In this document: positions 6,196-21,541 of the stretch, in pieces | How the letters are laid out: every line of letters begins with the position of its first letter | Numbering within the stretch: the first letter of the stretch is position 1 | Origin: Microbispora amethystogenes | Lineage (GTDB): Bacteria; Actinomycetota; Actinomycetes; Streptosporangiales; Streptosporangiaceae | Assembly (NCBI RefSeq): GCF_016863015.1 | Contig: NZ_BOOB01000014.1 | Coordinates: 1-64,000 of the forward strand | Reading direction: 5' to 3' | DNA length: 64,000 bases | Program-made: the position numbers and the translations under genes | Notes under the pieces: model-generated | The model's database searches: none | What the model was told of the DNA's origin: nothing | Seen by the model: the letters and a program-made list of their open reading frames with translations, nothing else

Positions 6196-6244
6196 CGCGG
6201 GCGGGTCCGGGTCCCCCTCTCCCTTCTCCCTGGTTTGGAGTGCT

Positions 6245-6258
6245 TGTGAGCGCTAACA
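6245..6258. promoter_or_regulatory. LacI-type operator 5, overlapping the araB start codon
   Basis: TGTGAGCGCTAACA differs from the reference palindrome at one of 14 positions. It contains the GTG start codon of araB at 6246-6248. Binding here could block an internal promoter or act as a roadblock, giving separate control of catabolic genes and transporter. Confidence 0.65.
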
Positions 6259-7895
6259 GCGAGCGTTACGTCATCGGCGTCGACTACGGCACACTGTCCG
6301 GCCGTGCCGTGGTGGTGCGGGTGAGTGACGGCGAGGAAGTGGGCGGCGCCGTCCACGAGTACGCCCATCGGGTGATCGAGGAGGCGCTGCCGGGCTCGGG
6401 GGTCCGCCTCGGGCCCGACTGGGCGCTGCAGTCGCCGGCGGACTGGATCGACGTGCTTCGGCACGCGGTGCCGAAGGCCCTGGCCGCCGCGCAGGTCCCG
6501 GCCGAGCGGGTGGTCGGCATCGGCACCGACTTCACCGCCTGCACGATCCTGCCCGTCACCGCCGACGGCCACCCGCTGTGCGAGCGCTTCCCCGAGCGGC
6601 CGCACGCCTGGCCGAAGCTCTGGAAGCACCACGCGGCCCAGCCCCACGCCGACCGGATCAACGCCCTGGCCGCCGAACGCGGCGAGCCGTGGCTGCCGCG
6701 GTACGGCGGCAAGATCTCCTCGGAGTGGCAGTTCGCCAAGGGCCTGCAACTGCTGGAGGAGGACCCGGAGCTCTACGGCCTGGCCGACCGGTGGATCGAG
6801 GCGGCCGACTGGATCATCTGGCAGCTCGCCGGCGTGGAGACCCGCAACGTCTGCACCGCCGGATACAAGGGGATCTTCCAGGACGGCGCCTACCCGTCGG
6901 AGGACTTCCTGGCCGCGCTCAATCCCGGCTTCGCGGGCTTCGCCGGGAAGCTGGGCGCCGACCTCGCGCCGCTCGGCGGTCTCGCCGGCCGGCTGACCGC
7001 GCGGGCGGCCGAGTGGACGGGGCTGCCCGAGGGGATCGCCGTCGCGGTCGGCAACGTCGACGCCCACGTCACCGCGGCCGCGGCCGACGCCGTGCGCCCC
7101 GGCCAGATGGTCGCCATCATGGGCACGTCCACCTGCCACGTCATGTGCTCCGACCAGCTCGCCGAGGTGCCCGGCATGTGCGGGGTGGTGCGTGACGGCA
7201 TCGTCCCCGGGCTGTGGGGCTACGAGGCGGGCCAGTCCGCCGTCGGCGACATCTTCGCCTGGTTCGTGGACAACTGCGTGCCCGCGTCGTACGCCGAGCG
7301 GGCCGCGGAGGCGGGGCTCGGGCTGCACGAGTACCTGACCTCGCTCGCGGACGGGCAGAAGGTCGGGCAGCACGGGCTGGTCGCGCTCGACTGGCACGGC
7401 GGCAACCGTTCGGTCCTCGTCGACCACACCCTGTCGGGGGTCGTCGTCGGGCAGACGCTCGCCACCCGTCCCGAGGACGTCTACCGCGCGCTCATCGAGG
7501 CCACCGCGTACGGCGCGCGCACGATCGTGGAGACCTTCGAGGCCGCCGGGGTGCCGGTCGAGGAGTTCGTGGTCGCCGGCGGCCTGCTGAAGAACCGGTT
7601 CCTCATGCAGATCTACGCCGACGTGCTGCGCCGCCCGCTGTCGGTGATCGGCTCCGACCAGGGACCGGCGCTGGGATCGGCGATCCACGCCGCCGTCGCC
7701 GCCGGGGACTACCCCGACATCACCGCCGCCGCGGCGGCGATGGGCAAGCGCGAGACCGCGGTGTACGCGCCCGACAAGGAGCGTGCCGACGCCTACGACC
7801 GGCTGTACGCCGAGTACCGGAGGCTGCACGACCACTTCGCGGACGGTGATCTCCTGCACCGGCTCCGCGCGATCAGGAACGAGGCCAGTGCATGA
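6246..7895 (+). CDS. araB: Ribulokinase
   Basis: AraB phosphorylates L-ribulose with ATP to L-ribulose 5-phosphate, the second step of arabinose catabolism in the cytoplasm. The 549-residue length is normal for the family. It is an FGGY-family carbohydrate kinase: the N-terminal ATPase core starts YVIGVDYGTLSGRAVVV, followed by GIGTDFTACT, the conserved MGTSTCHVM motif and the C-terminal motif VVAGGLLKNRFLMQIYADV. The GTG at 6246 is preceded by GGAG at five bases. The stop overlaps araD by four bases. Confidence 0.93.
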   Translation: MSANSERYVIGVDYGTLSGRAVVVRVSDGEEVGGAVHEYAHRVIEEALPGSGVRLGPDWALQSPADWIDVLRHAVPKALAAAQVPAERVVGIGTDFTACTILPVTADGHPLCERFPERPHAWPKLWKHHAAQPHADRINALAAERGEPWLPRYGGKISSEWQFAKGLQLLEEDPELYGLADRWIEAADWIIWQLAGVETRNVCTAGYKGIFQDGAYPSEDFLAALNPGFAGFAGKLGADLAPLGGLAGRLTARAAEWTGLPEGIAVAVGNVDAHVTAAAADAVRPGQMVAIMGTSTCHVMCSDQLAEVPGMCGVVRDGIVPGLWGYEAGQSAVGDIFAWFVDNCVPASYAERAAEAGLGLHEYLTSLADGQKVGQHGLVALDWHGGNRSVLVDHTLSGVVVGQTLATRPEDVYRALIEATAYGARTIVETFEAAGVPVEEFVVAGGLLKNRFLMQIYADVLRRPLSVIGSDQGPALGSAIHAAVAAGDYPDITAAAAAMGKRETAVYAPDKERADAYDRLYAEYRRLHDHFADGDLLHRLRAIRNEASA

Positions 7896-8551
7896 TCGAA
7901 GAACTGCGCAGGACCGTGTGCCGGCTCCACGCCGAGCTGGTGCGGTACGGCCTGGTGGTGTGGACGGCGGGCAACGTCTCGGGGCGGGTGCCCGGGGAGG
8001 ACCTGTTCGTCATCAAGCCGAGCGGCGTGTCGTACGACGACCTGACGCCCGAGTCGATCGTGGTGTGCGACCTGGACGGCAATCTCGTCGAGGGCGACCT
8101 CGCGCCCTCCAGCGACACGGCCGCGCACGCCTACGTCTACCGGCACATGCCGGAGGTGAACGGCGTGGTGCACACGCACTCCACGTACGCCTCGGCCTGG
8201 TCGGCCCGCGGGGAGGCGATCCCGTGCGTGCTCACCGCCATGGCCGACGAGTTCGGCGGCGAGATCCCCGTCGGGCCGTTCGCGCTGATCGGCAACGACG
8301 ACATCGGCAAGGGGATCGTGGAGACCTTGACAGGTCACCGTTCCCGTGCGGTGCTGATGCAGAACCACGGAGTGTTCACCATCGGGGAGTCGCCGAAGGC
8401 GGCGGTCAAGGCCGCCGTCATGTGCGAGGACGTCGCCCGCACCGTCCACCTCTCCCGCCAGCTCGGTGAGCCGCTGCCGATCGCCCCCGGCGACGTCGAC
8501 AGCTTGTACGACCGCTATCAGAACGTCTACGGACAGAGGAGTCACCTGTGA
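7892..8551 (+). CDS. araD: L-ribulose-5-phosphate 4-epimerase
   Basis: AraD converts L-ribulose 5-phosphate into D-xylulose 5-phosphate, linking arabinose to the pentose phosphate pathway. The 219-residue protein belongs to the class II aldolase/epimerase family. Zinc-binding histidines are visible in [10 protein letters not shown] and in the later MQNHGVF segment, and the phosphate-binding part includes the [10 protein letters not shown] motif. It overlaps araB and araA by four bases at each end, so the three enzymes are translationally coupled. Confidence 0.93.
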
Positions 8552-10029
8552 GGTTTTGGTTCCTGACCGGCAGCCAGGGCCTGTACGGCGAGGACACGCT
8601 GCGGCAGGTGGCCGAGCAGTCCCAGCGCATCGCCGAGACCCTCGGCGAGGGGCTGCCGTTCGAGCTCGAGTGGCGGCCCGTGCTCACCGACGCGGCGGCG
8701 ATCCGCCGGGTGTGCCTGGAGGCGAACGCCGACGACGAGTGCATCGGCCTGATCGCGTGGATGCACACGTTCTCCCCGGCCAAGATGTGGATCGCGGGCC
8801 TCGACGCGCTGCGCAAGCCGCTGCTCCACCTGCACACGCAGGCCAACGTGGAGCTGCCGTGGAGCTCCATCGACATGGACTTCATGAACCTCAACCAGGC
8901 GGCTCACGGCGACCGCGAGTTCGGCTACATCCAGTCCCGGCTGGGCGTGCCGCGCAAGACCGTCGCCGGGCACGTCAGCGACCCCGCGGTGGTGGCGCGG
9001 ATCGGCACCTGGGCGCGGGCGGCGGCCGGCCGGGCCGAGGTCGGCTCGCTGCGCCTGGCCCGCTTCGGCGACAACATGCGCGACGTGGCGGTGACCGAGG
9101 GCGACAAGGTCGAGGCGCAGCTGCGGTTCGGGGTGTCGGTGAACACCTACGGCGTCAACGAGCTGGTCGAGGCCGTGGACGCCGCCTCGGACGCCGACGT
9201 CTCCGCCCTGGTCAAGGAGTACGACGACCTCTACCGGATGGCGCCGGAGCTGCGCGTGGGCGGCGACCGGCACGAGTCGCTGCGCTACGCGGCGCGCATC
9301 GAGCTGGGCCTGCGCCACTTCCTGGAGGGCGGCGACTTCAAGGCCTTCACCACCAACTTCGAGGACCTCGGCGGGCTGCGCCAGCTTCCCGGCCTGGCCG
9401 TGCAGCGGCTGATGGCCGACGGCTACGGCTTCGGCGGCGAGGGCGACTGGAAGACGTCGGTGCTGCTCCGCACGCTCAAGGTGATGTCGACGGGCCTGCC
9501 CGGCGGCACCTCCTTCATGGAGGACTACACCTATCACCTCACCCCCGGCGAGGAGGTCATCCTCGGCGCGCACATGCTGGAGGTCTGCCCGACGATCGCG
9601 TCGGACACCCCCTCCTGCGAGATCCACCCGCTCGGCATCGGCGGACGCGAGGACCCGGTCCGGCTCGTGTTCGACGCCGAGCCCGGCTCCGCCGTGGTGG
9701 TCGGCCTGTCCGACATGGGGGACCGGTTCCGGCTGGTGGCCAACGAGATCGACGTGGTCGCCCCGCCCGAGCCGCTGCCGGCCCTGCCGGTCGCGCGGGC
9801 CGTCTGGCGGCCCCGGCCCGACCTGCGCACCTCCGCCGAGTCCTGGATCACCGCGGGCGCCCCGCACCACACCGTCCTGTCGTCGGCCGTCGGGGCGGAG
9901 GAGCTCACCGACTTCGCCGACATGCTCGGCGTCGAACTGCTCGTCATCGACGAGGCGACCACTCCCCGGCAGTTCGCGAAGGAACTGCGGTGGAACCAGG
10001 CCTACTACCGGCTCGCGCAGGGATTCTGA
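8548..10029 (+). CDS. araA: L-arabinose isomerase
   Basis: AraA isomerises L-arabinose to L-ribulose, the first catabolic step. The 493-residue length matches the family. The metal-binding region [10 protein letters not shown] and the following [11 protein letters not shown] segment carry the expected acidic residues, and the C-terminal third starts [15 protein letters not shown]. The GTG start overlaps the araD stop. A strong hairpin follows the stop codon, marking the end of the operon. Confidence 0.94.
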
Positions 10030-10088: not shown

Positions 10089-10117
10089 TTACCCGCCTCC
10101 GCGCGGACTCCTATACA
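10089..10117 (+). promoter_or_regulatory. Candidate promoter of tRNA-Ala copy 1
   Basis: TTACCC and TATACA are separated by 17 bases, 15 bases before the tRNA. The string TCCTATACACTGGC recurs at a similar distance before the second tRNA copy, which supports a functional -10 region. Confidence 0.5.
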
Positions 10118-10132
10118 CTGGCTGCGTCGCAC

Positions 10133-10205
10133 GGGGCTATAGCGCAGCTGGTAGCGCACCTCCATGGCATGGAGGGGGTCTGGGGTTCGAGTCCCCATAG
10201 CTCCA
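10133..10205 (+). tRNA. tRNA-Ala (anticodon GGC), copy 1
   Basis: A 73-base cloverleaf can be drawn. The acceptor GGGGCTA pairs with TAGCTCC, the D arm is GCGCAGCTGGTAGCGC, and the anticodon stem CCTCC/GGAGG encloses loop ATGGCAT with anticodon GGC. The T arm contains GGTTCGAGTCC. The discriminator base is A and CCA is not encoded. The sequence is identical to the copy at 12706-12778. Confidence 0.93.
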
Positions 10206-10220
10206 CAGACAGGATCGCCG

Positions 10221-10260
10221 AGGGGCGGTCGGACGCGTTTCACGCGGTCCGGCCGCCCTT
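10221..10260 (+). terminator. Hairpin downstream of tRNA-Ala copy 1
   Basis: AGGGGCGGTCGGACGCG (10221-10237) pairs with the imperfect complement CGCGGTCCGGCCGCCCTT (10243-10260) around a short loop. It starts 15 bases past the tRNA 3' end. Confidence 0.55.
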
Positions 10261-10363
10261 CGTCGTCGTTCCCCCGGGCCGGCGGCCGTGCCGGCCGCAT
10301 AAGGGTTGACAATGATCATTGACTCGGATTCCTGGCGAAAAGCCTAAATAGCTTCGGTATGTC

Positions 10364-10392
10364 TTGACTTGATCGGGCGAAGCCCCCTATCT
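10364..10392 (+). promoter_or_regulatory. Candidate promoter of the methyltransferase gene
   Basis: TTGACT (10364-10369) and CTATCT (10387-10392) are 17 bases apart, in a locally A+T-rich stretch (about 10306-10435) that stands out from the surrounding sequence. The expected transcript would start about 20 bases before the ATG. Confidence 0.45.
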
Positions 10393-10420
10393 AGAAGAAA
10401 GCAAATACAGCTGATCACCA

Positions 10421-11098
10421 ATGGCGGCCATGATGACAATCGAGTCAGGACCGGACAATCCGCGTCGGGAGTACCGAGCCATGCAGGCCGAGGCGTTCAA
10501 TCGCATCGGCGCCCGGTACGACGAGGCGTTCCCACACAAGGAGGGACAGGTCGCCGCCGGTGAATGGTTGATCAAGCAGCTCCAGCCGGGAGCGCGGGTC
10601 CTCGACGTGGGCTGCGGCACCGGCGCTCCCACCGCTCAGCAGTTCGCCGAGGCGGGCTGCGAGGTCACCGGCATCGACATCTCCCCGGTCATGCTCGACC
10701 TGGCCAGGAAGAACGTGCCGGTCGGCACGTTCTTCGAGACCGACGTGCTCGACCTCGACGCCTCGCTCGGCACGTTCGACGCCGTGACGGCCTTCTTCAG
10801 CCTGCTCATGCTGCCCCGGCCCCAGATCGAGCGGGCGCTCGGCCGGATCCACGCCGTGCTCGCGCCCGGCGGCCTGTTCTCGCTGAGCATGGTGGAGATC
10901 GACCTCGACGACGTGCCCTTCCAGTTCCTCGGCGCGCCGGTGCGGGTGACGGGGTATCTGCGCGACGAGTTGCGCGAGATCGTCGAGGCCGCGGGATTCA
11001 CCGTGCTGTCGGAGAACCACATCTCGTACGCGCCGGCGACCACGCAGGCGCCGCCGGAGATCCAGCTCTTCGTCAACTGCCGGCGTGACCATCGCTGA
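10421..11098 (+). CDS. Class I SAM-dependent methyltransferase
   Basis: This 225-residue protein has the Rossmann-fold methyltransferase core. Motif I is VLDVGCGTGAPT, followed by the acidic strand end VTGIDIS and a post-I segment ending in the FFSLLMLPRP strand. The substrate is not recognisable; the fold fits small-molecule methylation. The ATG at 10421 lacks a clear ribosome binding site, and ATG codons at 10430 and 10433 are possible alternatives. It ends 12 bases before the PP2C gene, so the two are probably co-transcribed. Confidence 0.8.
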   Translation: MAAMMTIESGPDNPRREYRAMQAEAFNRIGARYDEAFPHKEGQVAAGEWLIKQLQPGARVLDVGCGTGAPTAQQFAEAGCEVTGIDISPVMLDLARKNVPVGTFFETDVLDLDASLGTFDAVTAFFSLLMLPRPQIERALGRIHAVLAPGGLFSLSMVEIDLDDVPFQFLGAPVRVTGYLRDELREIVEAAGFTVLSENHISYAPATTQAPPEIQLFVNCRRDHR

Positions 11099-11110
11099 AC
11101 GGCCGAATCC

Positions 11111-12607
11111 GTGTGGGGAGACGGTGAGCCGTCGACCATGCTGCACGACGTCAGCGCGATCGCCCGGGCCGTGGGCGACAGCTCCGGCCCGGAGGAGGCG
11201 ACCAGGGCCCTCTGCGAGGCGGCGGTGCCGGGGCTGGCCGACGCCGCCGCGGTCTACGTGGACGGCGCCGTCTGGCACCGGGTCGATCCCGGCGACCGGC
11301 TCCCGTCGCGATGGGCGGGCCACGAAACCGGTGACGACGCCGGTGAGGAGGCCGGTGAGACCGCCCTGCTCGACGGGCGCCTGCTCGCCGTGCCGCTCCG
11401 GGCGTACGGGACGGTCGTGGGCTGCGCGCTGCTGGCGCGCGACGCCGGGCGGCCGCCCTTCGGCCCCGCGGACCTGTTCGCCGCGGGACAGATCGCCGTT
11501 CCCGCCGCACTCACGATCTTCCACGGCCGGCGGGACCGCCGCCAGGTCGAGATCGTCGAGACGCTGGAGCGTGACATGCGCCCGGGCGCCCCGCCCGACC
11601 TGCCCGGGCTGGAGATCTCCTACCGGTACCGGCCGGCCGCCGAGCGGGTGGGCGGCGACTGGTACGACGTGATCCCCCTGCCGGGCAGCAGGGTGGCCCT
11701 GGTCGTCGGCGACGTGATGGGCCACGGACCGGCCGCCGCGGCCGTGATGGGCCGGCTGCGCACGGTCGTGCAGACCCTGGCCGCGCTCGACCTCCCGGCC
11801 GAGCAGGTGCTCCACTCGCTGGACGAGGTGGCGCAGCGGCTGGCCGAGCAGACCATCACGACCTGCGTCTACTGCGTGTACGACCCGGTGCTGCGCCGGT
11901 GCACGATCGCGAGCGCGGGCCACCTGCCGCCGATCCTCCTGGGCGCGGACGGCCGGGCGGAGGTGCTGTCGCCGCCCCGGTGCCCGCCGATCGGCGGGCT
12001 GGGCCGCACCCCGTTCGAGACGATGGAGATCGCGGCGGAGGACGGCAGCATGCTCGTCCTCTACACCGACGGGCTCGTGGAGGAACGCGGGGAGGACATC
12101 GGCCAGAAGGTGGAGGACCTGCGCCGCCGACTGTCGGACGGGACCTCGATCGAGGACCTGACCGACGCCGTGCTGTCGGCCGCCCGGGCCGACGACGTCA
12201 CCATGCTGGCCATCCGCTTCCGCGGCATTCCGAGCGAGCACGTCGCCCAGTGGATGATGGAGCCCCAGCCGATGACGCCGTCGCGGGTCCGCGGCCTGGT
12301 CCGCCGTACGCTCGACGCGTGGGGTCTCGCGTCGATGACCCCCGTGGCCGAGCTGCTCGTGTCGGAGCTCGTCACCAACGCCGTACGGCAGACGTCGCGG
12401 CCCATCACGATCAGGCTGCTGCGCACCGACCATCTGCTGTGCGAGGTCAGCGACGACAACCACCGTCTGCCGGTGCAGCGGGAGCCCGGGCTGCTCGACG
12501 AGGACGGCAGGGGGCTCTACCTCGTCGGCCAGCTCGCCGGGCACTGGGGGGCGAGCCGGGTCGCGGGAGGCAAGACCGTGTGGTTCTCGATGCCGATCCC
12601 CGGCTGA
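11111..12607 (+). CDS. GAF / PP2C (SpoIIE-type) phosphatase with C-terminal ATPase domain
   Basis: This 498-residue protein combines three domains. A GAF-like sensor covers about residues 10-140. A SpoIIE/RsbU-type PP2C phosphatase covers about 150-365, with metal-binding motifs GGDWYDV and VVGDVMGHGPAAA and the DDVTMLAIR ending. An RsbW-like HATPase domain covers about 375-498 (LLVSELVTNAV, then DGRGLYLV). In actinomycetes such proteins act in partner-switching networks controlling alternative sigma factors, the ATPase part binding or phosphorylating an anti-anti-sigma factor. The partner is not in the window. The first in-frame start is GTG 11111; ATG 11138 is an alternative, and neither has a strong ribosome binding site. 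Confidence 0.85.
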   Translation: MWGDGEPSTMLHDVSAIARAVGDSSGPEEATRALCEAAVPGLADAAAVYVDGAVWHRVDPGDRLPSRWAGHETGDDAGEEAGETALLDGRLLAVPLRAYGTVVGCALLARDAGRPPFGPADLFAAGQIAVPAALTIFHGRRDRRQVEIVETLERDMRPGAPPDLPGLEISYRYRPAAERVGGDWYDVIPLPGSRVALVVGDVMGHGPAAAAVMGRLRTVVQTLAALDLPAEQVLHSLDEVAQRLAEQTITTCVYCVYDPVLRRCTIASAGHLPPILLGADGRAEVLSPPRCPPIGGLGRTPFETMEIAAEDGSMLVLYTDGLVEERGEDIGQKVEDLRRRLSDGTSIEDLTDAVLSAARADDVTMLAIRFRGIPSEHVAQWMMEPQPMTPSRVRGLVRRTLDAWGLASMTPVAELLVSELVTNAVRQTSRPITIRLLRTDHLLCEVSDDNHRLPVQREPGLLDEDGRGLYLVGQLAGHWGASRVAGGKTVWFSMPIPG

Positions 12608-12646
12608 CGGGATCTCCCCGGGGCGGGCCCGCTGACCGGTTTTCGG

Positions 12647-12674
12647 TTAGGCGCTGCCCCGGAAGTCCTATACA
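12647..12674 (+). promoter_or_regulatory. Candidate promoter of tRNA-Ala copy 2
   Basis: TTAGGC and TATACA are 16 bases apart. The segment TCCTATACACTGGC is the same as upstream of copy 1, although the flanking bases differ. Confidence 0.5.
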
Positions 12675-12705
12675 CTGGCGACGCGCCGCCGGGCGGCGTG
12701 GGTAA

Positions 12706-12778
12706 GGGGCTATAGCGCAGCTGGTAGCGCACCTCCATGGCATGGAGGGGGTCTGGGGTTCGAGTCCCCATAGCTCCA
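12706..12778 (+). tRNA. tRNA-Ala (anticodon GGC), copy 2
   Basis: All 73 bases are identical to the copy at 10133-10205, with the same acceptor, loop ATGGCAT and anticodon GGC. The sequences diverge immediately downstream, so the duplication is confined to the tRNA and its -10 region. Confidence 0.93.
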
Positions 12779-12798
12779 CCACTGCTGAATCATCTCAG

Positions 12799-12825
12799 GA
12801 GCCGTCCTCCGTCGGGGGGCGGCTC
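12799..12825 (+). terminator. Hairpin downstream of tRNA-Ala copy 2
   Basis: GAGCCGTCCTCC (12799-12810) pairs with GGGGGGCGGCTC (12814-12825) around a 3-base loop, with minor mismatches. It lies between the tRNA and the convergent HxlR gene and could serve both. Confidence 0.6.
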
Positions 12826-12841
12826 TCGGTGTCCCGGCCGG

Positions 12842-13294
12842 TCAGTGGCCCGTGCGTACGAAGGCGACGGCGTCCAGCGGGACGGCGTGCCCCTCGGGGT
12901 CGGTGAAGGACACGTCCAGCCGCGCCCCGGTCCGCCGATCGCGGCGTTCGACCGTCGGTCCCGCGAGCCGGGGCACGTGACGGTCCCCCCATTGCTGCAG
13001 CGCTCCGAGGATCACGAGCGCGTCGCGGCCCGAATCGGTCAGGTGGTACTCGTACCTGGTTCGGGCTCCGGTGTCGCGGTAGGGCCGCTTCTCGACGACG
13101 CCCGCACCGGCGAGCGTCGCCAGCCGGGTGGTCAGCAGGTTCGTGGCGATCCCCAGGCGCTGCTGGATGTCGGCGAAGCGGACGACTCCCGTGTGCAGCT
13201 CCCGCAGTATCAGCGGCGTCCACCGCTCTCCGAGGAGGGTCACCGCCCGCTCGATGGAGCACGTCATCGAGTCAGGGAGTTCGGTGGTCGTCAT
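12842..13294 (-). CDS. HxlR-family winged-helix regulator
   Basis: This 150-residue protein has the HxlR signature near the N-terminus (GERWTPLILRELHTG). The recognition region follows (RFADIQQRLGIATNLLTTRL), then the wing and the YEYHLTDSGRDAL ending typical of the family. HxlR proteins bind DNA as dimers and usually control a neighbouring oxidoreductase. Here the divergent short-chain dehydrogenase is the obvious target. The inducer is not known. Confidence 0.88.
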   Translation of the reverse strand: MTTTELPDSMTCSIERAVTLLGERWTPLILRELHTGVVRFADIQQRLGIATNLLTTRLATLAGAGVVEKRPYRDTGARTRYEYHLTDSGRDALVILGALQQWGDRHVPRLAGPTVERRDRRTGARLDVSFTDPEGHAVPLDAVAFVRTGH

Positions 13295-13350
13295 CGCACG
13301 CCTCGCTCGCTCGTCGTCGGTGGGGTCCAGGCTAGCCGGGGAATGCTGGC

Positions 13351-13379
13351 TTGCAATTTTAAAGTTAGATCTCTACCGT
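13351..13379 (+). promoter_or_regulatory. Candidate promoter/operator between the HxlR and SDR genes
   Basis: TTGCAA (13351-13356) and TACCGT (13374-13379) are 17 bases apart in the direction of the SDR gene. The spacer is unusually A+T-rich and holds the near-palindrome around TTTTAAAG, a plausible HxlR binding site. Confidence 0.4.
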
Positions 13380-13410
13380 GGACGCCAAGCCGTCGAGGGA
13401 TGGAGACACA

Positions 13411-14115
13411 ATGAGGATCGAAGGATCGGCCGCGCTGGTCACGGGCGCGAACCGCGGGCTGGGACGACGGCTCGCAGCCGCGCTGCTGGACCGTGGTGCC
13501 GCCAAGGTGTACGCGGCGGCGCGCAGGCCGGAGACGGTCGACCTGCCGGGCGTGGTGCCGCTCGCCCTGGACATCACCGACCCCGCGTCCGTCCGGGCCG
13601 CCGCCGAGCGGGCCCGCGATGTGAACCTGCTGATCAACAACGCGGGGATCTCCACGGGCTCGTCGTTCCTCGCCGGTGCGCTCGACGACATCCGCCTGGA
13701 GATGGAGACGCACTACTTCGGCACGCTCGCCATGGCTCGTGAGTTCGCCCCTGTCCTGGGCCGCAACGGGGGCGGCGCGATCCTCAACGTGCTGTCGGTG
13801 CTGTCGTGGTTCACCGCCCCGCAGGTGGCCGGCTACTCCGCGGCCAAGGCCGCCGCGCTGCAGCTCACCAACAGCCTCCGCCTCGAACTGAAAAATCAGG
13901 GCACGCTCGTCACGGCGCTGCACGTCGGATACATGGACACCGACATGGCCGCCCACGTCGACGGACCCAAGATCGACCCGGCGGAGGTCGCCGCCCAGGC
14001 CCTGCAGGGGATCGAGCAGGGGAGCTTCGAGGTGGTCGCCGACGACACGAGCCGCCAGGTGCGGGCCATGCTGTCCGGCGACGTGGCCGGCCTGTATCCG
14101 CAGCTGGCATCCTGA
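13411..14115 (+). CDS. Short-chain dehydrogenase/reductase (SDR family)
   Basis: This 234-residue NAD(P)-dependent oxidoreductase has the cofactor motif VTGANRGLGRRLA at the N-terminus, NNAG in the middle and the catalytic YSAAK with an upstream serine in LSVLS. The start is placed at ATG 13411, which has GGAG eight bases upstream; an in-frame GTG at 13378 lies in the promoter region. Divergent orientation from the HxlR gene suggests regulation by it. The substrate cannot be assigned. Confidence 0.87.
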   Translation: MRIEGSAALVTGANRGLGRRLAAALLDRGAAKVYAAARRPETVDLPGVVPLALDITDPASVRAAAERARDVNLLINNAGISTGSSFLAGALDDIRLEMETHYFGTLAMAREFAPVLGRNGGGAILNVLSVLSWFTAPQVAGYSAAKAAALQLTNSLRLELKNQGTLVTALHVGYMDTDMAAHVDGPKIDPAEVAAQALQGIEQGSFEVVADDTSRQVRAMLSGDVAGLYPQLAS

Positions 14116-14160
14116 AAGGCGGGCACATGATCACACGCGGGCCGGGTAGGGGCGAGTGCC

Positions 14161-14367
14161 ATGAAGAGAATCCTTCAGCTCGTCGTCACCCGCTGGCTGG
14201 CCCGTACGCCGATCGGGATGGTCGTGCTCGGCCTCGGCTGGCTGTTCGCCCGCAAGCGGCGTTCGGACCAGCGGCAGCAGTCGCAGACCCAGGTGCGCCG
14301 CGCGCCGGGCCGCCGGTCGGACGACCGGTACGACCGGCGGAGGCCGGTCGCGGGCGCCCGCCGCTGA
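14161..14367 (+). CDS. Small membrane protein, one hydrophobic helix and a basic tail
   Basis: This 68-residue protein begins MKRILQLVVTRW, has a hydrophobic stretch about residues 19-30 (GMVVLGLGWLFA), and then a very basic, polar tail rich in Arg and Gln. This is the layout of the small uncharacterised DUF6203-type proteins of actinomycetes, though that name is from memory and uncertain. It follows the SDR gene by 45 bases and is probably in the same transcript. Function is unknown. Confidence 0.6.
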   Translation: MKRILQLVVTRWLARTPIGMVVLGLGWLFARKRRSDQRQQSQTQVRRAPGRRSDDRYDRRRPVAGARR

Positions 14368-14374
14368 TCACCCG

Positions 14375-15397
14375 TCAGGAGAGCGCGGCGGGGGTGCGGA
14401 ACGTCTGCCGGTAGGCGAGCGGGGACACCCCGACGGCGGCGTTCAGGTGCTGCCGGAGCGAGACCGCGCTGCCGAACCCCGCCTTCCTGGCGATCGCGTC
14501 GACCGGCAGGTCGGTGGTCTCCAGCAGATGCCGGGCGTGCGCGACGCGCTGCCCGGCGAGCCACCTGGCCGGGCTGAGGCCGGTCTCCTCCCGGAACCGC
14601 CGGGTGAAGGTCCGCACGCTCATGCGGGCGTGCGCGGCGAGGGCGGCCAGGTTGACCGGTTCCTCCAGATGTTCCAGCATCCACGCCCGGGTGGGGGCGG
14701 TGGTCGTCCCCACCGGGTCGGGCAGCGGCCGCTCGATGTACTGGGCCTGACCGCCCTCCCGGAACGGCGGCGTCACGCACCGGCGGGCGGTGCGGTTGGC
14801 CACCTCGGTGCCGTGGTCGCGCCGGATCACGTGCAGGCACAGGTCGATGCCGGCCGCCACCCCGGCCGAGGTCAGCACGTCGCCGTCGTCGATGAACAGC
14901 ACGTCCGGATCGAGCCGTACGCGGGGGAAGAGGGCGCGGAAGGCCGCGGCGTTGCGCCAGTGGGTCGTCGCGGGCCGCCCGTCCAGCAGACCGGCCGCGG
15001 CGAGCACGAAGGCGCCGGTGCAGATCGAGATCAGCCGGGCCCGCCCGGCGACCGCCCGCAGCGCCTCGCGCACCTCCTCGTCGAGCGTGCCGTCCCTCAG
15101 CGCGCGACCGTCGTGCACGCCCGGCACCACCACTGTGTGCGCCGTGGCGAGCACGTCCAGGTCGTGGTCGGGGAGGACGCGGTAGCCCGCCCGGGTCCGC
15201 ACCGGCCGGGCGCCGGGGGAGCAGGTGACGACCTCGTAGAGCGGCCCCCGTTCGGAGTCGCGGCCGGGGTCACGGTCGCGGGCGGCGAGGAACACCTGCC
15301 CGGGGATGCCCAGGTCGAGCGACGCGAAGTGGTCCAGGACCAGGACGGCGACCCGGTGTACGGGTGGGCGCACGGCTGGGTGCGTGACCGGAGGCAT
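14375..15397 (-). CDS. GlxA-type regulator: DJ-1/PfpI domain plus AraC HTH
   Basis: This 340-residue protein has an amidase-like DJ-1/PfpI domain over about residues 12-200, including the nucleophile-elbow region ICTGAFVLAAAGLLDG. An AraC/XylS double helix-turn-helix covers the last 110 residues (MSVRTFTRRFREETGLSPAR and AIARKAGFGSAVSLRQHL). The family activates or represses genes in response to small metabolites. It is divergent from the MFS transporter, a likely target. A second regulator of the same architecture lies at 42727. Confidence 0.88.
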   Translation of the reverse strand: MPPVTHPAVRPPVHRVAVLVLDHFASLDLGIPGQVFLAARDRDPGRDSERGPLYEVVTCSPGARPVRTRAGYRVLPDHDLDVLATAHTVVVPGVHDGRALRDGTLDEEVREALRAVAGRARLISICTGAFVLAAAGLLDGRPATTHWRNAAAFRALFPRVRLDPDVLFIDDGDVLTSAGVAAGIDLCLHVIRRDHGTEVANRTARRCVTPPFREGGQAQYIERPLPDPVGTTTAPTRAWMLEHLEEPVNLAALAAHARMSVRTFTRRFREETGLSPARWLAGQRVAHARHLLETTDLPVDAIARKAGFGSAVSLRQHLNAAVGVSPLAYRQTFRTPAALS

Positions 15398-15468
15398 GGC
15401 CGGATTCTTTCACATGTTGACCTCCCGGCCACTGTCCGCCCGGCGGGCGTGACGGGAGGATGCTCGCC

Positions 15469-16728
15469 ATGAAGTCGTTGCACCGTGCCTGGACAGTGGC
15501 CGCCGTCGCCTTCGTCGCGATCATCGGGGCGGCCGGCTTCCGGGCGACGCCGGGCGTGCTGATCATGCCGCTGCAGGACGAGTTCGGCTGGACGAGGGGC
15601 ACCATCTCACTGGCGGTGTCGGTCAACCTCATGCTCTACGGGCTGTGCGCGCCGTTCGCGGCGGCCCTGATGGACCGCTTCGGCATGCGCCGGGTGGTCG
15701 CCTGCGCCCTGCTGCTGGTGGCCGCCGGCAGCGGCCTCACCGTGTTCATGACCGCGAGCTGGCAGCTCGTCGCGCTCTGGGGGGTCCTGGTCGGGGCGGG
15801 CACCGGCTCGATGGCGCTCGTCTTCGCCGCCACGCTGACCGACCGCTGGTTCGTCCGGCACCGCGGCCTGGTCACGGGCGTGCTCACGGCGGGCGGCGCC
15901 ACCGGGCAGCTGGTCTTCCTCCCGCTGCTCGCCCACCTTGTGGAGGCGCAGGGCTGGCGGCCGGCCTCGCTCACGGTGGCCGGGGCCGCGCTCGCCGTCG
16001 TCCCCCTCGTGTGGTTCCTGCTCAGGGACACTCCCGAGGAGATCGGCCTGACCGCGCTGGGGGCCGATGGGCCGGTCGTCCGTACACCGGGAGGGGGCGC
16101 CGCCGCGCGGGCCGTACGGGTGCTGCGGGACGCGGCGCGCACCCGCTCCTTCTGGTACCTCGCCGGGGGCTTCGCCATCTGCGGCGCGAGCACCAACGGC
16201 CTGGTCGGCACCCACTTCATCCCGGCCGCCCACGACCACGGCATGCCCGAGACCGTCGCGGCCTCGCTGCTGGCCGTCATCGGCGTGTTCGACATCGCCG
16301 GCACGATCTTCTCCGGGTGGCTGAGCGACCGCGTGGACGCGCGGCTCCTGCTCGTCGTCTACTACGCCCTGCGCGGGCTGTCGCTGCTGGTCCTGCCGCA
16401 GCTGTTCGCCGCCACGACCGAGCCGAGCATGCTGGTCTTCATCGTCTTCTACGGCCTCGACTGGGTGGCCACCGTGCCGCCTACCGTCGCCCTGTGCCGC
16501 AGGATCTTCGGCGCGGACGGCGCGGTGGTGTTCGGCTGGGTCTTCGCCTCCCACCAGGTCGGCGCGGCCGTCGTCGCCACCGTGGCCGGCGTCACCCGCG
16601 ACCACCTGGGGAACTACGACCTGGCGTGGTACGGCGCCGGCGCCCTGTGCCTGCTCGCGGCGCTCATGTCGTCCCGCATCGTCACGCGTGTCCGGGACCG
16701 CGGCGAAGCTGCGATCCTTGTCGGGTGA
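15469..16728 (+). CDS. Major facilitator superfamily transporter
   Basis: This protein of 419 residues has about twelve hydrophobic segments and the MFS loop motif after helix 2 (ALMDRFGMRRVVA), with the corresponding loop repeated in the second half (GWLSDRVDARLLL). Cytoplasmic-membrane transport is clear; the substrate is not. The start is placed at ATG 15469 because GGGAGG lies nine bases upstream; the earlier ATG 15460 directly abuts that motif. The stop overlaps the start of the next gene by four bases. Confidence 0.85.
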   Translation: MKSLHRAWTVAAVAFVAIIGAAGFRATPGVLIMPLQDEFGWTRGTISLAVSVNLMLYGLCAPFAAALMDRFGMRRVVACALLLVAAGSGLTVFMTASWQLVALWGVLVGAGTGSMALVFAATLTDRWFVRHRGLVTGVLTAGGATGQLVFLPLLAHLVEAQGWRPASLTVAGAALAVVPLVWFLLRDTPEEIGLTALGADGPVVRTPGGGAAARAVRVLRDAARTRSFWYLAGGFAICGASTNGLVGTHFIPAAHDHGMPETVAASLLAVIGVFDIAGTIFSGWLSDRVDARLLLVVYYALRGLSLLVLPQLFAATTEPSMLVFIVFYGLDWVATVPPTVALCRRIFGADGAVVFGWVFASHQVGAAVVATVAGVTRDHLGNYDLAWYGAGALCLLAALMSSRIVTRVRDRGEAAILVG

Positions 16729-19549: not shown

Positions 19550-21541
19550 ATGTCCAATGATGTCCTGATGCGAAGCGGTGCGTGGCCCCGAGGTCTCTGG
19601 GCGATCCCTGTCCTGTGCGGGGCGGCCGTCGTCGCCGGCGTCGCGCTGACCGCGGCCGCGCCCGCCCTGGACACCACCTATCTCGTGCTTGACGCGGTCG
19701 CCGGCCTGACCTGCCCGGCGGTGGGCGTGCTGATCCTCTCGCGATGGCGGCGGCACCTCGTCGGCCTGCTGTTCTGTCTCAGCGGCGCCGGGCTGGCCCT
19801 CCAGGCACTTTCCGGGGGATACGCCGCGTACGCACAGTCGCACGGGCTGCCCGGCGCCCTGGCGGCCGCGTGGGTGACGAACTGGGTGTTCTTCACCGGC
19901 TTCGGGCCGCTCCTGCTCCTGCCCATGCTGCTGCCCGACGGACGGCTGCCGTCGCCGCGCTGGCGGCCGGTCCTGGTCGCGGCCGTCGCCGGGATGATGG
20001 TGCTCCAGGTCATGCTCATGCTTCGGGACCGCATCTGGGTCTGGGGGCGGGAGGTGCCCAGCTCGTTCGGTTTCGTGCCCACCAAGCCCATGGCGGAGCT
20101 CACGTTCGGCGTGGTGGCGATCGGGCTGGCCGCGTCGGGGATGGCGGCGCTGGCCGCACGGGTCACCCGATCCGACGACAGGCGACGTCTCCTGCCGGTG
20201 TTCGCGGCCGTCGTCGCGGTGGGGCTCGCGGTGGCCGCCGACACGCTGCTGCCGCCCGATCCGCCCGTGGGCGTGTGGCTGCTGGCCGTGGCGCTGCCGC
20301 TGTTCCCCGCGGCCACGGCGGTCTCGATCTTCCGCTACCGGTTGTTCGACATCGAGGTGCTGATCCGGCGCACCGTCGTGTACGCGCTGGTCACGGTCAC
20401 GCTGCTGGGGGCCTACCTGGTCACCGTGGCCACGATCGGCACGCTCCTGCGGGCCGGGAGCGGGGTGTTCGAGCCGCTGGCCGCCACCGCCGTCGTCGCG
20501 GTGGCGTTCGCACCCGCGCGCGACGCAGCGCAGCGGGCCGTCGGCCGTCTGCTGTTCGGCAACCGGGGCGACCCCGCGGCCGCGTTGTCCCTGCTCGGCC
20601 AGCGCCTCGAGTCGTCGGCCGACCCGACGCGGCTCCTCGAACGGGCGGCGGAGACCGTGGCGCACACCCTGCGGCTGCCCGCGGTCGCCGTGCTCGCCGC
20701 CGACGGCACGCCGGTCTGCGCGGAGGGCGGTGTCCCCGGCGACGGCGTACGTCTGCCGCTCGTGGTGGGTGGACGCGTGGAGGGGGAGTTGCGCGCGGCT
20801 CCCCGATCGCCGGGCGAGGCCCTGTCGGCGGCGGACCTGGCGGTGCTCGACGACCTCGCCCGCCAGCTCGCGGTCGCCCTCGCGGCCGTACGGCTCGCCA
20901 GGGAGGTGCAGACGTCGCGGGAGCGGCTGGTCATCGCCAGGGAGGAGGAACGGCGCAGGCTCCGCCGTGACATCCACGACGGTCTCGGGCCCGGCCTCGC
21001 CGCCATCGGCGTAAGGCTCGACGTGATAGAGGCCACCGCCGCGGGCGTGTCGCCTGCCGTGCGATCGTCGCTGTCGGAGGTCGGGCAGCTCGTCCGGGGG
21101 CTCGTCGGGGACGTGCGGAGGATCGTTCACGACCTGCGCCCGCCGGCGCTCGACGAGCTCGGGCTGGCCGGAGCCTTGGAGGACCTGGCCCTGGAGACGG
21201 AGGAGACCGCGCAGGGCGGCCCCGCGGTCAGGGTCCGGGTGCCGGAGCCGCTTCCCGAGCTGCGGGCCGCCGTCGAGGTGGCGGCGTACCGCATCGCCCA
21301 GGAGGCGCTGGCGAACGCCCTGCGGCACGCGCAGGCCAGGACCGTTGAGATCGTCGCACGGATCGAGCGGGGCGGGCTGGTCCTGCGGGTCCGCGACGAC
21401 GGCCGGGGGCTGCCCGAACCGCTCGTCGAGGGCGTGGGGTCGGGCAGCATGAGAGAGCGCGCCCTGGAACTCGGCGGCGTGCTGCACAGGACGTCCGCCT
21501 TCGGGACGGGCACGACAGTAGAGGCGGTGCTGCCGCTGTGA
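19550..21541 (+). CDS. Sensor histidine kinase (NarX/DesK-type)
   Basis: This protein of about 663 residues has an N-terminal half with roughly nine transmembrane segments, a GAF-like cytoplasmic region, then HisKA_3 and HATPase domains. The phosphorylated histidine lies in DIHDGLGPGL, the N box in AQEALANALRHA and the G box in VRDDGRGLPEP. The start is uncertain: ATG 19550 is used, ATG 19568 is equally possible, and neither has a clear ribosome binding site. It overlaps the response regulator gene and pairs with it. The signal is not known. Confidence 0.88.
   Translation: MSNDVLMRSGAWPRGLWAIPVLCGAAVVAGVALTAAAPALDTTYLVLDAVAGLTCPAVGVLILSRWRRHLVGLLFCLSGAGLALQALSGGYAAYAQSHGLPGALAAAWVTNWVFFTGFGPLLLLPMLLPDGRLPSPRWRPVLVAAVAGMMVLQVMLMLRDRIWVWGREVPSSFGFVPTKPMAELTFGVVAIGLAASGMAALAARVTRSDDRRRLLPVFAAVVAVGLAVAADTLLPPDPPVGVWLLAVALPLFPAATAVSIFRYRLFDIEVLIRRTVVYALVTVTLLGAYLVTVATIGTLLRAGSGVFEPLAATAVVAVAFAPARDAAQRAVGRLLFGNRGDPAAALSLLGQRLESSADPTRLLERAAETVAHTLRLPAVAVLAADGTPVCAEGGVPGDGVRLPLVVGGRVEGELRAAPRSPGEALSAADLAVLDDLARQLAVALAAVRLAREVQTSRERLVIAREEERRRLRRDIHDGLGPGLAAIGVRLDVIEATAAGVSPAVRSSLSEVGQLVRGLVGDVRRIVHDLRPPALDELGLAGALEDLALETEETAQGGPAVRVRVPEPLPELRAAVEVAAYRIAQEALANALRHAQARTVEIVARIERGGLVLRVRDDGRGLPEPLVEGVGSGSMRERALELGGVLHRTSAFGTGTTVEAVLPL

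Follow-up and report, generated by a model that had tools for sequence, protein, structure and literature searches.

A pair of tRNA-Ala(GGC) genes brackets a methyltransferase gene and a phosphatase gene in Microbispora amethystogenes, and this arrangement raises the question of whether the bracketed segment is a recent, mobile or deletable insert or an old feature of the genus. The window analysed here is the whole stretch of 64,000 nucleotides from contig NZ_BOOB01000014.1 of assembly GCF_016863015.1 (positions 1 to 64,000, forward strand); the features of the locus are collected in Table 1.

The tRNA copies and their surroundings

An earlier note on this DNA described two identical tRNA-Ala(GGC) genes in one orientation, a description borne out by ARAGORN (anticodon ggc) and Rfam, which agree on both genes and place them on the forward strand. 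The repeat comprises 74 identical nt (the tRNA copies themselves having been given as 73 nt) at a spacing of 2573 nt, a match far beyond chance. A cloverleaf and the GGC anticodon are present by ARAGORN and Rfam, and the G3-U70 pair, the alanine identity element, can be read from the sequence; together these are the features of a functional tRNA-Ala(GGC). The third copy of the window genome (copy 0) lies on a separate contig, C69, and all three copies have the same sequence form; the CCA end is encoded by copy 2 only, being missing from copy 1 and from the C69 copy (10206-10209 and 12779-12781 compared). The presence of an encoded CCA is variable among relatives as well. ARAGORN also calls a tRNA-Ser(cga) at 21214-21308 (-) within a histidine-kinase-like gene; the call was dropped because Rfam does not list it, and it is probably false.

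The 14-nt piece TCCTATACACTGGC precedes both copies and had been taken to extend the repeat upstream; its presence at both stands, however the unequal offsets of 24 and 40 nt mean that it does not lengthen the tRNA repeat. Each copy has an upstream region of its own that is conserved genus-wide, so the 14-nt piece is better considered a shared promoter element than the edge of a longer repeat; it looks like the -10-like region of each copy's own promoter. The strong hairpins 3' of copies 1 and 2 are predicted to be the probable ends of the tRNA transcripts; strict scans of the region for sigma-70 consensus promoters and for terminators returned neither, and the copy 1 hairpin was likewise unlisted. 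The tRNA copies are predicted to be separately transcribed. Hairpins also occur in the 5' leaders of copy 2 (12680-12705) and copy 0; that of copy 0 is kept in the genus, and leaders in other genera have hairpins too. When the 55 tRNA leaders of genome G001 are ordered by fold z-score, the three GGC copies come 13th, 25th and 46th, and in view of these unremarkable ranks no claim is made for their leader hairpins as a special feature.

Table 1. Positions of the features of the tRNA-Ala(GGC) locus in the window, with the evidence for each
Feature	Position	Strand	Evidence
Upstream neighbours, xylB/araD/araA-like (xylB and araD names presumed), genus-conserved	6240..10029	+	araA by Pfam
Predicted -10-like promoter region of copy 1, TCCTATACACTGGC	10109..10122	+	conserved at the locus in the genus; starts 24 nt before the tRNA
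tRNA-Ala(GGC) copy 1, CCA not encoded	10133..10206	+	ARAGORN; Rfam RF00005, 62.5 bits
Strong hairpin after copy 1	10217..10262	+	RNA fold of 10207-10275, -43.3 kcal/mol, z -4.2
A+T-rich conserved promoter and 5' leader of the methyltransferase operon	10310..10432	+	G+C 0.48-0.53; alignment
Class I SAM-dependent methyltransferase, 221 aa	10433..11098	+	Pfam; alignment; AlphaFold2 pLDDT 91; Foldseek
RsbU/SpoIIE-type phosphatase with C-terminal RsbW-like kinase domain, 489 aa	11138..12607	+	Pfam; alignment; 3ke6 fold match
Predicted -10-like promoter region of copy 2, TCCTATACACTGGC	12666..12679	+	conserved at the locus; starts 40 nt before the tRNA
tRNA-Ala(GGC) copy 2, CCA encoded	12706..12781	+	ARAGORN; Rfam tRNA, 62.5 bits
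Strong hairpin after copy 2	12797..12827	+	RNA fold of 12782-12840, -32.8 kcal/mol, z -3.7
Downstream neighbours: HxlR-type regulator, short-chain dehydrogenase, AraC-type regulator, MFS transporter (AraC-type and MFS names presumed)	12842..16728		Pfam; genome comparison

The locus across Microbispora

The earlier note had proposed a comparison of relatives, in which both tRNA copies and the same two genes in every relative would point to an old, stable arrangement; the comparison came close to that outcome. Three tRNA-Ala(GGC) copies are present in all 15 Microbispora genomes, the window genome included (ARAGORN read 44 of these 45 copies; the remaining one, the third of G010, was seen by similarity only), and the methyltransferase-phosphatase pair occupies the gap between copies 1 and 2 in 14 of them. 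The common order starts with gpm and copy 0, followed by 20-33 kb that include the xylB/araD/araA-like genes, and continues with copy 1, the gap, copy 2, and the presumed AraC-type and MFS genes; copy 0 is on a different contig in G000, G010 and G014, and a GGC copy is found 3' of gpm in 14/14 fetched copy-0 regions of the genus. The flanking genes that were traced appear metabolic or regulatory. The one genome lacking the pair, G005, keeps both tRNAs around an arabinofuranosidase, a TetR-type regulator and a histidine kinase; since both tRNAs are still there and the gap is filled by different genes, this genome does not represent the single-tRNA product of recombination between the copies. 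That product, expected if recombination deletes the segment as had been suggested, was seen in none of the 15 genomes. In G012 the pair is present with a broken phosphatase gene.

The gap between copies 1 and 2 ranges from 2543 to 25511 bp and is the most fluid of the three intervals, other genes having been gained and lost there. It holds 30 gene clusters, of which two are core (the pair) and 18 occur once (15 genomes); 16 of 36 clusters are core between copies 0 and 1 (12 genomes), and beyond copy 2 the core makes up 4 of 14 clusters (13 genomes). The genes were called by a simple codon-bias script, so small genes may be missed in these counts. In several Microbispora an aminoglycoside-2''-adenylyltransferase-family gene lies just after copy 2 (L107:2941-3378; a cluster of eight, Pfam for one member); the window genome has none at that place.

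Integrative elements of actinomycetes usually sit at the 3' ends of tRNA genes with an integrase adjacent (PMC3218068), and the segment could be read as the remnant of an element whose integration into the 3' end of tRNA-Ala(GGC) gave rise to the second tRNA copy. Such elements and the Microbispora segment have in common a position beside a tRNA and tRNA sequence on the flanks, and integrase-family genes do adjoin four other tRNAs of G001, namely Ala(CGC), Ala(TGC), Thr(TGT) and Pro(TGG). This origin is nevertheless very improbable. Both copies are full genes with locus-specific upstream regions, where an attachment repeat is normally the 3' part only, and no partial tRNA match of at least 14 nt was found in the fetched regions of the 15 genomes; the proteins of the four integrase sites match each other, and none has a match in the GGC regions of those genomes. 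Among the matches listed, about half of 298 genus-wide integrase matches, none falls in a tRNA-Ala(GGC) region. The pair, being in 14 of the 15 genomes, is not strain-specific. None of the usual marks of a tRNA island (an adjacent integrase, a direct repeat of 3' tRNA sequence at the opposite boundary, an empty site in close strains) was found in the 15 Microbispora genomes, and Pfam identified no recombinase among 20 genes in or next to the gap, a selection from the gap and gap-adjacent genes of G002, G004, G005, G008 and G036, which comprises enzymes, transporters and regulators. Set against those elements (PMC3218068), the Microbispora segment differs in having neither an integrase nor a partial tRNA repeat and in being old and nearly fixed in the genus. 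A literature search on tRNA genomic islands in Microbispora returned nothing relevant. Judged by these sequence comparisons, the locus is an old arrangement, and a recent, mobile or deletable insert is not supported.

Array spacing and the likeness of the copies

In a pattern search of 22 family genomes from other genera, 8 had three GGC copies, 6 had two, 7 had one, and a single genome had none. Directly downstream of gpm there is a GGC copy in 15 of 20 fetched other-genus family genomes, in one case beyond a small ORF, and in three of eight fetched genomes from outside the family (G057, G041 and G053). The copies are compactly spaced in G021, G032, G024, G030 and G035 (spacings of 170, 202, 698, 1260, and 682 plus 267 bp among the five), zero to two ORFs being called between copies in these arrays of 170-1260 bp spacing; in G042, from another family, they are 261 bp apart. 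Wide spacing, with 2-37 kb between neighbouring copies, is found in G018, G019, G020, G022, G023, G026, G029 and Microbispora. A tree of nadD-rsfS-gpm proteins, built on 535 columns and printed without support values, places most wide-spaced genomes in one group and G020 and G022 outside it; from so short a tree lacking support values, a direction from compact to spread can only be suggested, and a wide arrangement that was later compacted is the alternative.

In the compact-to-spread direction, an ancestral tandem array of tRNA-Ala(GGC) genes would have lain beside nadD-rsfS-gpm, at the site of copy 0; in the Microbispora lineage, the interval from copy 0 to copy 1 would have gained 20-33 kb of DNA, including the arabinose genes, and the interval from copy 1 to copy 2 would have gained the methyltransferase-phosphatase pair. 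The earlier suggestion that the segment arrived by insertion next to a tRNA survives in this deep-time form only, for which compact relatives and gap turnover speak; no mark of an integrase-driven event was found in the regions of the 15 genomes. A literature search on tandem tRNA gene arrays found no relevant paper.

The 44 Microbispora copies fall into only three haplotypes, without intermediates, which are told apart by one anticodon-stem pair, changed from C-G to U-A, and by a single base of the T loop. The genus tree requires a minimum of 2, 3 and 3 haplotype switches for the three loci (at least 8 switches in total), those of copy 0 including three bases changed at once, and variants are shared within a genome across loci with distinct flanks, as is characteristic of concerted evolution. 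A mosaic of three haplotypes without intermediates is better explained by gene conversion between loci than by repeated triple mutation, and we infer gene conversion as the process; part of the switches could be older polymorphism or recombination between strains. The near-identity of the copies would then come from one copy overwriting another instead of from recent duplication. A recent tandem duplication of the tRNA with neighbouring DNA would account for the identical 73-nt copies and the 14-nt promoter piece in common, but is considered extremely unlikely: both copies stand at the same places, with different flanks, in all relatives, none of the 15 genomes is single-copy there, and the promoter piece sits at differing offsets, its presence at both copies being more readily explained by an ancient duplication of the gene together with its promoter.

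Bacterial rRNA operons are an example of multi-copy RNA genes kept alike by gene conversion (PMC8022953); they share with the present case several full copies, a mosaic of variants over loci and locus-specific flanks, and the Microbispora case differs from them in concerning a tRNA whose copies are distributed over 25-50 kb with protein genes between. No literature was found on concerted evolution or gene conversion of tandem tRNA genes in Streptomyces.

Recombination between the identical tRNAs might also exchange whole cassettes of the gap and so cause the turnover of its content. The fluidity of the copy 1-2 gap, the movement of tRNA haplotypes between loci and the three-gene set of G005 between the same tRNAs agree with such exchange, which is nonetheless judged unlikely; changes take place beside a kept pair, for example AzlD/AzlC/regulator genes on one side only, and therefore need break points other than the tRNAs, and no exchange with exact tRNA boundaries was shown. 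A bolder form, in which the gap is a natural cassette site where tRNAs kept identical by conversion let incoming DNA recombine, so that genes are traded within the genus and the pair (itself a stress switch) is almost always kept, is regarded as quite improbable. The favoured reading, held to be probable with good confidence, is that an old tandem array was spread by inserted genes, that its copies have been kept alike by gene conversion, and that the pair is an old two-gene unit with a likely signalling role.

The methyltransferase-phosphatase pair

Pfam identifies both proteins as the earlier note had described them, a methyltransferase (Methyltransf_25, 3.1e-22) and a stress-type phosphatase, and the unusually A+T-rich DNA noted ahead of the first gene is likewise confirmed, G+C dropping to 0.48 at 10340-10459 from a surrounding level of about 0.70. 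Across 12 Microbispora sequences this stretch aligns and is conserved upstream of the methyltransferase, with or without an adjacent tRNA, and its core is recognisable in Planotetraspora, Sphaerimonospora, Acrocarpospora and Herbidospora; being conserved with the methyltransferase regardless of the tRNA, it is taken as the leader of that gene and not as an insertion scar. Translation of the methyltransferase probably starts at 10433 and not at 10421, since the position equivalent to 10421 is ACG in 7 of the 12 aligned Microbispora sequences and Planotetraspora has an in-frame stop ahead of the conserved ATG. The predicted structure gives many Foldseek matches to class I methyltransferases, mostly of the small-molecule type, at 13-26% identity among the 50 listed; the closest named relatives of the protein are from Microbispora, reaching 98% in M. 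triticiradicis.

The phosphatase joins a SpoIIE domain (Pfam, 4e-49) and a C-terminal HATPase domain (2.2e-06) in a single chain; its model has a pLDDT of 83, and its best fold match is to the RsbU-RsbW domains of Rv1364c (3ke6) from Mycobacterium tuberculosis. Residues D174, D192, D311 and D353 are invariant in an alignment of 24 phosphatase sequences and are presumably the acidic metal-binding ligands, with the role they have in PP2C enzymes. Residues 1-146 form one domain in the model, without family assignment. Rv1364c has the same succession of phosphatase domain and RsbW-like kinase domain in one chain, in a layout that also includes a PAS sensor and an RsbV-like domain; the window phosphatase differs in having no Pfam match to a PAS or RsbV-like domain and in being paired with a methyltransferase gene.

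Of 64 named loci, 52 have the phosphatase gene no more than 1.6 kb downstream of the methyltransferase gene; in ten of the other 12, the identity of the methyltransferase is about 53% or less. The pair stands between both tRNAs in 2/2 Sphaerimonospora loci and in three of five Acrocarpospora loci, the remaining two having the downstream copy only (one covered just 2.1 kb upstream). Six Planotetraspora loci include one with the downstream copy and one with the upstream copy, and no GGC copy was found within the available flanks of the pair in any of the seven Herbidospora loci; given Herbidospora and the single-copy Planotetraspora genome G036, the tRNA bracket is not a constant feature of the pair. 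Streptomyces and Kitasatospora have the pair as well, and their available flanks contain no tRNA-Ala(GGC). On this distribution the pair is an old unit. Individual loci vary further: Planotetraspora kaengkrachanensis (L148) has no phosphatase beside the methyltransferase, the pair of Rhizohabitans (L179:9284-12246) lies 0.6 kb after a tRNA-Arg(CCT) gene instead, and Planotetraspora silvatica (G036, contig C45) has only copy 1 of tRNA-Ala(GGC), its rsfS and gpm being present without copy 0.

The pair is read as an old two-gene unit with its own promoter, and its putative role is likely to be in stress or development signalling. The RsbU/SpoIIE-type domain is predicted to dephosphorylate an anti-anti-sigma factor, and the RsbW-type domain to bind that factor or a sigma factor; the methyltransferase is predicted to modify a probably small substrate tied to the same response. 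In the RsbK-RsbM-RsbY system of Bacillus cereus the methyltransferase RsbM methylates the histidine kinase RsbK (PMC4574943), which is a precedent for a methyltransferase in partner switching; the likeness to the present pair lies in a methyltransferase and a PP2C phosphatase which in B. cereus belong to one stress pathway. The window methyltransferase differs from RsbM in resembling small-molecule-type class I enzymes. A literature search on SpoIIE-type proteins with methyltransferases in Streptosporangiaceae found none.

An identical tRNA pair can resemble the edges of an island and yet be an old array entered by ordinary genes. With three loci of distinct flanks and three haplotypes, the Microbispora array offers a clean case for measuring tRNA gene conversion between copies tens of kilobases apart; the conserved methyltransferase-RsbU/RsbW pair is a candidate regulatory unit of filamentous actinobacteria.
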